Source: Branchiostoma lanceolatum (Eukaryota; Chordata; Leptocardii; Amphioxiformes; Branchiostomatidae). Taken from it: 64,000 bases of DNA. The stretch is from assembly GCF_035083965.1 (NCBI RefSeq), contig NC_089738.1, positions 16,757,734 through 16,821,733 of the forward strand. The letters run 5' to 3'. The notes beneath the pieces were generated by a model. That model saw only the letters and a program-made list of their open reading frames with translations, was not told the DNA's origin and ran no database searches. Position 1 is the first letter of the stretch. Each line of letters begins with the position of its first letter. Shown here piece by piece: positions 33,101 to 53,426 of this stretch. Made by a program: the position numbers and the translations under genes.

Positions 33101-34616
33101 CCGAGTTCAAATCCCCCTGACGCCACCGATGTTGTGCCCTTGGGAAAGGCACTTGACACGACTTTCCTCACTTCGCCCAGGTGCATAAAAATAAAAATGG
33201 GTATGTTGTTATCTGTACGTGGCACTGTTAATATAAGTTATAAAAAACTTGAGTGCAGTGTCACGTCGTCCTTGTCGGTCCAAAACCGAAAAAAAATAAA
33301 AAATGAACCTGCTGTGATTTTCCGTAGGAAAATACTGCGGCATGGATGTCCCGGCCGTCATCACCACAACAAACGGCGTCAGGATTAACTTCAAGACCGA
33401 CTCCAGCGTCGGTATGCGTGGATTCAGGTTCGAGTACCGCGTCGCCACTCAAGCCCCGACCAAGCCACCCACCGAGAAGCCAGGTATTGTAAAACTCTAT
33501 GCAAATACGAAGGGGTGTCCCCGTGGTGTAGTGGTCTGCGCTTCTGTCTCTCACCACATCTGGTTCTGATTACTTGGACCAGAAGGACTGGGGTTCAAGC
33601 TCCAGGTAGGACACCTCTGGACAAGAGGCGCATTGAGTCATACCAAAGACTTTATAAAATTGGTACATACTTCTGAAACAGTATGGAAATTAAACACTCT
33701 TCACTGCCAGTGGACTAGCCCCCTGCTACAGTGATTGCACCACATTGTGGCCCAGGACTAAGAAACGGAGATGGGTTTACATCAATAATGGTGTGGGAGG
33801 ATTTTAACTTAACTAATGCAAATACGAAACATTGTAATACATTCCTGATGAAGAACACTGTTATCAGTATAATGATCTATAGTCGTAGCATGCATAAATT
33901 GTCTTTATTTCTATTCGCAAAGTATATCAATTTAGTGCTTTAAAATTGTCAGATATATTAACAATAGTTCAACTGCCATGTATGTACAAGTGGTCATACA
34001 TTCTACTTGTTGCCATTGTCGTGCAATAAAGTTGTCTTTTGTAATACACATCAATTTAATGTCAACTCACACACTTCCACCGGTTACCTAAGATATGTAC
34101 CAATACTGCCACATCAAAAACGGTGTTTTCGAGGCCTTCTCAAGATTTTCTTGAACGCCGTGATATCATGTTAAGTGTGGATACCTAACAGAACTTCCTT
34201 TTCAGCCCCTATGCTGCTTTTTAAGTTTCTTAAGAACATAATTGGGCGAATACTCTCAAAAAAGAGAAAAAGAAGAAGAACTTTATTGCAGGAAAATCTT
34301 ACGCGGTACAATGTATGGCAACAACTATAAAACATAGTACAAAATAGAAAAAATAGATAAAACTCAACATCCTAATTACTGAAACAATAAGGGATAGCAA
34401 AAGTGTTTGATATAGTGTTAGAATAGAGTAGGGCTAATCATGAGTTTTTTTACTTTGAACTACAAAGCGGTCTTTTATATTATTTTTATTTCATTTTACT
34501 TTTATAATATTTAAGAAATATATCATACTTGTACAATCGTACCAATCTAGATTTTTTTGTGTTCTCCCTCAGCCGGCAGTGGAGATGGTAGCGGAGACGA
34601 CTTCTTGTTCCCTTAG
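30185..34616 (+). CDS. Secreted two-CUB-domain protein A
   Basis: Seven exons: 30185-30233, 30740-30879, 31390-31489, 32026-32209, 32506-32669, 33328-33483 and 34573-34616. They give 278 residues, all junctions in phase. The order is signal peptide (MMFFVVGVFCLATIANG), CUB domain 1 (about 21-135), CUB domain 2 (about 143-250), a Thr/Pro linker (TQAPTKPPTEKP) and the tail AGSGDGSGDDFLFP. The eight CUB cysteines are all present: 21-47, 82-100, 143-169 and 198-216 by family pairing. CUB domains bind proteins, often through calcium; no protease or other catalytic domain is attached. The ATG is doubled (MM); either could start. It is the first and most diverged of four tandem paralogues, with the longest CUB1 loop (GTDGFFGLFGGS). 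Partner and tissue are unknown. Confidence 0.92.
30965..31100 (-). repeat. Interspersed repeat, copy of 20,085-20,215
   Basis: In intron 2 of CUB gene A, inverted relative to the copy in the SLC3A1-like gene: ACCTGCTGACGTTTCGGTG and GCTTCTGACTGGAGTACTGC are shared. The two copies lie on opposite strands about 11 kb apart. Confidence 0.6.
32405..32461. repeat. (GA)n microsatellite, intron 4 of gene A
   Basis: About 57 bases of GA repeat with one interruption, 45 bases before exon 5. Confidence 0.95.
32716..33045 (+). mobile_element. Degraded tRNA-derived SINE, intron 5 of gene A
   Basis: A good A box (TAGCTCAACTGG near 32,727), a degenerate B-box region, a middle segment related to 11,225-11,310 in reverse, and a right end resembling the 2500-2775 repeat (GTTCACTGT, GGGGAATTTC, ACAATGAACCTG). 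Confidence 0.5.
33055..33190 (+). mobile_element. tRNA-derived SINE, truncated copy
   Basis: A box TGGCGTAACGGC and B box GAGTTCAAATCCC, then GATGTTGTGCCCTTGGG and AAGGCACTTGACACGAC, as in the SINE at 12,512. The 3' part is missing. Confidence 0.7.
33512..33815 (+). mobile_element. Full-length SINE with 13-bp target duplication
   Basis: A 304-bp insertion bounded by identical ATGCAAATACGAA at 33,499-33,511 and 33,816-33,828. The head is tRNA-like (A box TGGTGTAGTGGT, B box GGGTTCAAGC) and the tail is GGATTTTAACTTAACTA. It begins only 28 bases after the exon-6 donor of CUB gene A. A second full copy, inverted, lies at 37,052-37,373. Confidence 0.88.
34260..34410 (-). mobile_element. LINE-tail-like repeat
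   Basis: AGAACTTTATTGCAGG and GGTACAATGTATGGCAACAAC resemble tails at 22,495 and 48,790. Intron 6 of gene A. Confidence 0.45.
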
Positions 34617-34759
34617 ATCTTCCGACTTCTGACGACTTACAGCAACTACAACATCGAGAAATCAAAAGAGCGATATTCAATTACTACATACGTACTAGCA
34701 ACTTCGACGACTGGTGTCATATAAGCCCATATGGGATGGGCAATTGTTTTACATGACAC

Positions 34760-52300: not shown

Positions 52301-53426
52301 CGACTTTGTCGAGATCTACGCCGGACGCACAAAGATTGGTGGGCAAACAATATGTTACAGCTTTAAGTTCAAAAAAATCCTTAAGATTGTTGGATTCTTT
52401 ACATTAGGTTGAGACTTTTCGTTGTTTGTAACATTTTGAACAAACGAAACATTAGAAACATCTAATAGTCGAATCGTCTGACGTGCCACTGATGTTTTGC
52501 TCTTTGAAAAGACACTTTATACAACTTTCCTCACTCCGCCCAGGTGTAGAAATGGGCACCCGACTTCAGTTGGGGAGGTAAAAGGCTGTGGAAAGAGAGG
52601 GTTGGGCCCCACCTCCCAATACTGTGCCCTAGACAACAGTGGATAACAACCTATGACCTCAAAAAGGCTATGGGACTACCTTTACCTTTACCTTTTTATA
52701 CCGAATATCATCCGTATATACGTGAACACGCCCCCGTATGCTTACGCTCCTTATGTTCCAGGCACGTATTGTGGTTCTGACATGCCGCCCCGTCTGACCA
52801 CCATCGAGCAAGTCAGGATCAAGTTCCAGTCCGACTCCAGCGTGGAGGAGCAGGGCTTCAGGTTTGAGTACATGATTGATGGGCCGCCCACTACCACCAT
52901 GAAGCCAGAAACCACCACGAAACCTGGTCTGTTTCCCACGTCTCACGTGTATATTTCACTTATCCTAAGCCCTCCCCTTTTCTTCCCTTTCGAAACTGGC
53001 AGACAAAGCCGAACGTTCTCGGAAAAACGAATCTTTCAGTATTTTAGTCTTCATATAACAAATGATTAACGCAATGTTGTAGTATTATGTGGTTTGTAAA
53101 CAAAAATTGTGTATATGTACTCTTAATCTCTCCTTTTTGTTACATGTTCTTAGCCCAATGGGATACATATGTACATCAGGGTATTCACTTTTTTCAGGTG
53201 CATTGACCGATAGAAACATAAAATTGACAAACATACAAATAGACTAAATAAATGTAGTTTCTGTAGTGGCAGTCGGATTCTAAAATACGTTTTATGATTA
53301 TGATAAGGGTGTTTGATATTCTACTTATGAATAGATAACATACTTTTAACATATCATCATGTTTACACAGAGGGCAGCGGAGAAGGCAGCGGGGAAGACT
53401 TGAGTGAAGACAGCTTCCTCATCTAG
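49346..53426 (+). CDS. Secreted two-CUB-domain protein D
   Basis: Seven exons: 49346-49391, 49900-50039, 50457-50547, 50786-50978, 52175-52338, 52762-52926 and 53371-53426. They give 284 residues, all in phase. Signal peptide [19 protein letters not shown]1 opens TQCGGNLVQ and has CNYDYVE; CUB2 opens PCGSHLE and has DCTWTIHG and GCPYDFVEI. The linker is [15 protein letters not shown], and the tail [18 protein letters not shown] is the longest, with the most acidic residues. Intron 4 holds a partial exon-4 copy, two decoy acceptor copies and large CT arrays, making it the most structurally unstable locus in the window. Confidence 0.92.
50310..50395 (-). mobile_element. tRNA-derived SINE head, intron 2 of gene D
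   Basis: The minus strand has an A box TGGCTTAGTGGG and a B-box-like AGGTCGATCCCC, ending at CATACCAAAGACT, which also occurs in the SINE family at 33,512. No long body is attached. Confidence 0.5.
50995..52020. repeat. CT-rich microsatellite complex, intron 4 of gene D
   Basis: Long (CT)n, (CTGT)n and TCTCTGTCTCTCC arrays at 50,995-51,075, 51,190-51,650 and 51,840-52,015. Open frames through them encode Ser/Leu/Cys repeats on one strand and Arg/Glu on the other; these are not genes. Confidence 0.95.
51082..51177 (+). pseudogene. Partial duplicate of gene D exon 4 with donor
   Basis: Repeats the last ~90 bases of exon 4 (TACGCCGTGCAGCACGAGCT through TCACCGGGGTAAGCTTCTG) with few changes, including the splice donor and following intron bases. 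No acceptor precedes it. Confidence 0.9.
51795..52174 (+). repeat. Three copies of the exon-5 acceptor region
   Basis: The block ending TGACTATTTCTGTACAGCTTC occurs at about 51,799-51,840, 52,080-52,115 and, as the true site, 52,141-52,180. The first copy continues CTTCCCTGACTG, like the start of exon 5, before dissolving into CTGT repeats. Confidence 0.85.
52481..52690 (+). mobile_element. SINE body copy, intron 5 of gene D
   Basis: TGCTCTTTGAAAAGACAC, TCCTCACTCCGCCCAGGTG and AAAAAGGCTATGGGA match the 12,512-family body; the tRNA head is lost. The tail has CTTTACC repeats. Confidence 0.65.

Follow-up and report, generated by a model that had tools for sequence, protein, structure and literature searches.

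A stretch of 64,000 nucleotides (nt) from the lancelet Branchiostoma lanceolatum (contig NC_089738.1, positions 16,757,734 to 16,821,733), called here the window, contains four neighbouring genes, A to D, which are best explained as tandem duplicates encoding predicted secreted proteins with two CUB domains each. The last exon of every gene, 29-56 nt long, encodes a C-terminal tail composed of Gly-Ser-Gly and an acidic residue. Judging from the sequence, this tail is probably a site of glycosaminoglycan (GAG) attachment, and we predict that A-D form a small family of secreted CUB-CUB proteoglycans. That each CUB gene ends in a GAG-attachment-like tail had been proposed in an earlier note on this DNA; the Gly-Ser-Gly-acidic arrangement was indeed found in 4/4 genes, and the tail-exon coordinates given there were matched exactly by our gene models (Table 1).

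Information on invertebrate proteoglycans was described as scarce and limited to a few species (PMC8418075). Our literature search, made at the level of titles and abstracts and thus giving weak evidence of absence, found neither a description of the A-D cluster nor one of a small secreted proteoglycan with CUB as its only domain. As paralogues that differ in the number of sites (one or two) and in the acidity downstream of them, A-D would provide a natural series for studying what a core protein needs in order to carry chondroitin or heparan sulfate.

The CUB-CUB proteins and conservation of their tails

The genes were modelled by joining open reading frames across GT-AG introns, with splice sites predicted from the DNA sequence. 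Intron phases (1,0,1,2,1,1) are identical in A, B, C and D, and the encoded proteins share 51-68% identity in pairwise comparisons. Each of the four contains two stretches matching the CUB domain (PF00431; 148-169 bits against a gathering cut-off of 21.4), and a Pfam scan at E 0.001 returned CUB models alone, with no other family above the cut-off. The N-terminal 16-17 residues are hydrophobic (mean Kyte-Doolittle 1.89-2.27) and end with ANA or ANG, a signal-like start as judged by hydropathy alone. No membrane-like span follows it in any of the proteins, the highest 19-residue mean hydropathy being 0.99. The predicted mature cores have a mass of 27.4-29.4 kDa, eight cysteines and an isoelectric point of 4.1-4.8. 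A tblastn search of the window with proteins A-D (E up to 0.01) detected no further CUB gene beyond the modelled exons.

The paralogues are old, as far as can be read from their sequences: synonymous divergence among their CUB segments amounts to 0.58-1.42, and beyond the exons blastn found mainly apparent dispersed repeats, together with similarity in the surroundings of exons 4 and 5 in C and D. The tails are located beyond both CUB domains in all four proteins, according to the Pfam boundaries, and are preceded by a linker of 14-20 residues, 7-10 of which are Thr, Ser or Pro (counted by eye). To call this linker 'mucin-like', as was done previously, is an overstatement, as it is short and Thr/Pro-rich with no mucin domain.

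The tail is built from a four-residue (12-nt) unit, present in one copy in B and in two copies in A, C and D. Among the seven tail serines of the four proteins, an acidic residue occurs at +2 in all (7/7) and at -4 to -2 in 6/7. The motif [ED][GA]SG is found in 4/4 tails and nowhere else in proteins A-D; in A it is present at the second site only. Four columns (G268, S269, G270 and G272 of D) are invariant within the six tail positions common to B, while elsewhere outside the CUB domains there are four invariant columns across the whole linker and three near the signal-peptide end. It was thus fair to say that, outside the CUB folds, no feature is more constant than the tail. In A, C and D, the tail sequences quoted in the earlier note stop 2-3 residues short of the C terminus. 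All four tails finish in hydrophobic residues: FLFP (34602-34613), MII (40253-40261), FIF (47324-47332) and FLI (53415-53423).

Shuffling of the proteins placed [ED][GA]SG within the last 20 residues with a probability of 0.0016-0.0036. We also counted motifs in six frames of the window and of 100 first-order Markov sequences. The doubled form, GSG[DE]GSG[DE], occurs three times in the window and appeared in none of the 100 simulations. The single [ED][GA]SG was found nine times (six matches in the tails, one in a sulfotransferase exon and two on the minus strand), against a simulated mean of 3.06 and a maximum of 9; as nine was attained in simulation, we rejected the bare count as proof of non-randomness. 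These counts indicate that what stands out is the doubled motif and its placement, and not its abundance.

The codons of the tail argue for selection on the residues that they encode. In the nine-codon core GSG[DE]GSG[DE][DE] of A, C and D, none of the 18 first and second positions is variable, compared with seven of nine third positions (Fisher p = 4e-5). Each pair among these three genes gives 0/18 and 5/9, respectively (p = 0.0016). When B is included, five codons can be compared, with 0/10 first and second positions and 4/5 third positions variable (p = 0.0037); in the pairwise comparison of B with D, p = 0.022. With the synonymous divergence taken from the CUB segments (0.58-0.94), the probability of neutral retention of the 18 tail positions is between 1e-6 and 9e-5. 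Nonsynonymous divergence (dN) is 0.08-0.16 in the tail, 0.34-1.73 in the linker and 0.18-0.44 in the CUB domains. Because third positions vary, first and second positions are fixed and the adjoining linker has diverged, selection seems to preserve Gly-Ser-Gly together with an acidic residue. Across A, C and D, Asp alternates with Glu at each of the three acidic columns; the property kept there thus appears to be acidity.

Probable glycosaminoglycan attachment and its alternatives

The context of the tail serines resembles that of established sites. E/D-G/A-S-G is the motif reported for chondroitin core proteins of C. elegans (PMC8418075). Xylosyltransferase XT1 needs a small residue after the Ser, and the syndecan-1 and bikunin sites PAAEGSGEQDFT and QEEEGSGGGQGG are bound by it (PMC5992326); Gly, preferred by xylosyltransferase in this place, is what follows Ser in each tail. 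Known GAG sites are found where the protein is unstructured, with chondroitin as the default chain (PMC10570366). Our literature searches combining lancelets with GAG terms, likewise made on titles and abstracts, found no direct data on lancelet GAG chains; Branchiostoma was reported to possess Fam20B, which phosphorylates xylose in the GAG linker, as well as Fam20C (PMC5865150).

If the tail is modified in this manner, the tail serines would be xylosylated by a Golgi xylosyltransferase, after which the common linker would be assembled and the chains extended. The product would be a core of approximately 27-29 kDa with, at its C terminus, a single chain in B and at most two in A, C and D. The CUB pair could bind a partner, and the chain could serve as an anchor to matrix or mucus, or as a means of concentrating ligands.

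The type of chain may differ between the paralogues. Acidic residues downstream of the serine, notably at +7 in betaglycan, were shown to favour priming of heparan sulfate by EXTL3 (PMC10570366). Such a residue is present at +7 of A Ser267, C Ser271, D Ser269 and D Ser273, and absent from this position at A Ser271, C Ser275 and B Ser264. From this distribution and the published specificity of EXTL3, we infer that A, C and D would be open to heparan sulfate, primed by virtue of the acidic +7 of the upstream serine, while B would receive chondroitin sulfate by default and be chondroitin-only. One may speculate further, with considerable reservation, that the last exon governs how many chains a protein carries and of which type, giving two heparan-sulfate-open sites in A, C and D and one chondroitin-only site in B. 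Were this true, duplicates could diverge in GAG type by changes in a few codons.

Several observations weigh against GAG attachment. The motif alone is ambiguous. This is stated in the nematode study, where 19 further proteins contained it but were not among the proteoglycans detected (PMC8418075), and [ED][GA]SG is also encoded in the sulfotransferase exon (15900-15911), whose protein has no evident signal peptide; moreover, the motif count in the window was equalled by at least one of the 100 simulations. Protein B is devoid of a second Ser-Gly site, and A has Ala instead of an acidic residue ahead of its first Gly-Ser-Gly. Pairwise constraint tests for A-B and B-C were not significant (p = 0.095), those among A, C and D are non-independent since these pairs share ancestry, and the test takes in every third-position change, Asp-Glu changes included. 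Finally, GAG attachment does not account for the hydrophobic C-terminal ends. The proposal of a CUB proteoglycan family is partly supported, by the signal-like start, the position of the tail outside the CUB domains, the presence of the motif in 4/4 proteins and the codon constraint, and is weakened by the ambiguity of the motif and by the single site of B.

One alternative, which we regard as rather unlikely, is that the tail is an unmodified, acidic and flexible Gly/Ser end, serving solubility or charge repulsion or, with its hydrophobic terminus, acting as a short linear binding motif, and that the repeat arose by 12-nt slippage. Differences among the paralogues in the copy number of the unit would agree with this, as would the hydrophobic residues that terminate all four tails. 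However, recent slippage predicts near-identical DNA, whereas third positions in A, C and D have diverged to the extent given above with no change at first and second positions. Besides, Ser is kept alongside the acidic residues, and charge alone would not require it.

Less plausible still is phosphorylation of the tail serines by the secretory kinase Fam20C, which would produce an acidic phosphopeptide tail (for instance, one binding calcium) and no GAG site. The kinase is present in Branchiostoma (PMC5865150), it targets S-x-E (PMC12650399), and this sequence occurs at three of the seven tail serines (C Ser271, D Ser269 and D Ser273). The remaining four, which include all tail Ser-Gly sites of A and B, are in the S-x-D context, whereas Glu at +2 was found in about 80% of Fam20C sites and was their sole significant feature (PMC12650399). 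A-D all keep the two glycines of the first Gly-Ser-Gly, for which Fam20C has no known requirement.

It is very improbable that the tail exons are artefacts of gene modelling and that the true proteins end elsewhere, as four paralogous genes yielded similar terminal exons in the same phase, AATAAA follows the stops at a distance of 78-161 nt, and codon-position constraint is unexpected in non-coding DNA. This possibility is favoured by the weak donors that end exon 6 in A and D, matched in score by about 25% of GTs, and by the acceptor ranks obtained with our first weight matrix: among the AGs of the interval, the tail-exon acceptors ranked 1/97 in A, 11/59 in B, 37/67 in C and 12/31 in D. That matrix, based on 20 sites, included three exon bases and penalised tails starting with A. 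An intron-only matrix, adopted after these results were known, gave ranks of 1/97, 5/59, 1/67 and 3/31, respectively. The DNA of C and D can be aligned across the acceptor and the tail, with 85% identity over 40 nt, nine of them intronic. When the first six residues of candidate terminal exons (161-176 per gene) were compared, the best pair came from the reported start, or from one lying a 12-nt unit inside it, in five of six gene comparisons; the exception was A-C, in which a repeat-like pair, 34276/48788, ranked first.

Relation to known CUB proteins and proteoglycans

Neuropilin-1 is an already known CUB-containing protein that is a part-time proteoglycan, and as such the key precedent for A-D. 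Its GAG is attached at Ser612, and a splice form devoid of the downstream GDDFQLT, which contains two Asp residues, is poorly modified (PMC5087894). The GAG serine is located at an exon end, and GDDFQLT is removed by use of an alternative donor (PMC5087894). When protein D, the only one searched, was compared with PDB, the nearest solved structures were cubilin, PCPE-1, MASPs including MASP-1, and neuropilins; thus, its CUB domains are related in sequence to those of neuropilin-1. Another likeness is Asp-Asp-Phe after the Ser, the tail of A ending in GSGDDFLFP. Unlike in neuropilin-1, the predicted GAG site of A-D lies at the extreme C terminus, and no membrane-like span follows the signal. 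Neuropilins also contain F5/8 type C (coagulation-factor) and MAM domains together with a membrane span. This set is missing from A-D, in which Pfam recognised only CUB (4/4).

With PCPE-1 (procollagen C-endopeptidase enhancer), which protein D matched in PDB at 1.5e-29, the proteins share a tandem pair of CUB domains. PCPE carries a C-terminal NTR domain after its two CUB domains; A-D gave no NTR match (E 0.001, 4/4), and the tail occupies the NTR place. Since the other domains of the neuropilin and PCPE families are absent, A-D are, on the evidence of their sequences, not members of either family. They may work in a similar way.

As predicted invertebrate core proteins with E/D-G/A-S-G, A-D are also comparable to the CPG set of C. 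elegans, a likeness known from the motif alone (PMC8418075). The tail of C is close to the syndecan-1 and bikunin sites, the resemblance being local only (PMC5992326). When genome contigs were scanned, 92 stretches matched, 11 of which encode CUB relatives at 27-34% identity; all 11 came from contigs titled as Bacteroidota-type metagenome-assembled genomes (MAGs) and are uninformative on the tail. Among the 15 stretches matched in viral contigs, none (0/15) was a relative. To our knowledge, the syndecan-1 and bikunin core proteins are unrelated to A-D.

Coordinates, neighbouring genes and local duplications

Table 1. Features of the window (positions counted from its first nucleotide)
Feature	Position	Strand	Basis and details
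CUB gene A, 7 exons, 278 amino acids	30185..34616	+	gene model; Pfam two CUB stretches, E 5.8e-49; exons 30185-30233, 30740-30879, 31390-31489, 32026-32209, 32506-32669, 33328-33483, 34573-34616
CUB gene B, 7 exons, 270 amino acids	35787..40264	+	gene model; Pfam two CUB stretches, E 4e-46; exons 35787-35835, 36358-36491, 37560-37650, 38433-38616, 39230-39390, 39808-39972, 40236-40264
CUB gene C, 7 exons, 281 amino acids	41754..47335	+	gene model; Pfam two CUB stretches, E 1.4e-43; exons 41754-41799, 42615-42757, 43650-43740, 44197-44386, 44862-45022, 46763-46936, 47295-47335
CUB gene D, 7 exons, 284 amino acids	49346..53426	+	gene model; Pfam two CUB stretches, E 4.4e-50; exons 49346-49391, 49900-50039, 50457-50547, 50786-50978, 52175-52338, 52762-52926, 53371-53426
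Tail exon of A, AGSGDGSGDDFLFP	34573..34616	+	gene model; candidate acceptor serines 267 (34578-34580), 271 (34590-34592)
Tail exon of B	40236..40264	+	gene model; single candidate acceptor serine 264 (40241-40243)
Tail exon of C	47295..47335	+	gene model; candidate acceptor serines 271 (47300-47302), 275 (47312-47314)
Tail exon of D	53371..53426	+	gene model; candidate acceptor serines 269 (53376-53378), 273 (53388-53390)
AATAAA downstream of gene A	34760..34765	+	144 nt past stop
AATAAA downstream of gene B	40425..40430	+	161 nt past stop
AATAAA downstream of gene C	47485..47490	+	150 nt past stop
AATAAA downstream of gene D	53504..53509	+	78 nt past stop
Sulfotransferase gene, six exons	13102-16678		PF00685, E 1.1e-68; upstream of CUB cluster
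Gene resembling SLC3 amino-acid transporter heavy chain	about 18080-27189	-	SLC3A2_N and alpha-amylase models
Exon piece, part of filamin repeat	63214-63351		PF00630, E 1.7e-06

The fifth exon of the sulfotransferase gene carries the EGSG mentioned above, and the protein start has no signal peptide by eye. A link of this enzyme to GAG sulfation was considered and rejected, given the PF00685 match and the absence, by eye, of a hydrophobic start. Cytosolic sulfotransferases likewise lack one. For the SLC3-like gene, the scan covered two neighbouring exons only (24670-24850 and 25288-25560). The piece of filamin repeat probably belongs to the beginning of a filamin-like gene that continues past the window end.

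Outside the modelled exons, tblastn gave two partial copies of exon 4 alone, each comprising its 3' part and donor site, located in intron 4 of B (38661-38789) and of D (51081-51173). As the copies are partial, we ruled out that they represent extra CUB domains. In alignments of C with D, the intron-4/exon-5 boundary recurs as copies at 51798-51838 and 52075-52112. Both kinds of copies look like local duplications among CT-rich repeats.

Divergence of the two CUB domains is uneven, A being the outlier in the first (51-54% identity to the others) and B in the second (47-49%), which may reflect different constraint on the two domains.

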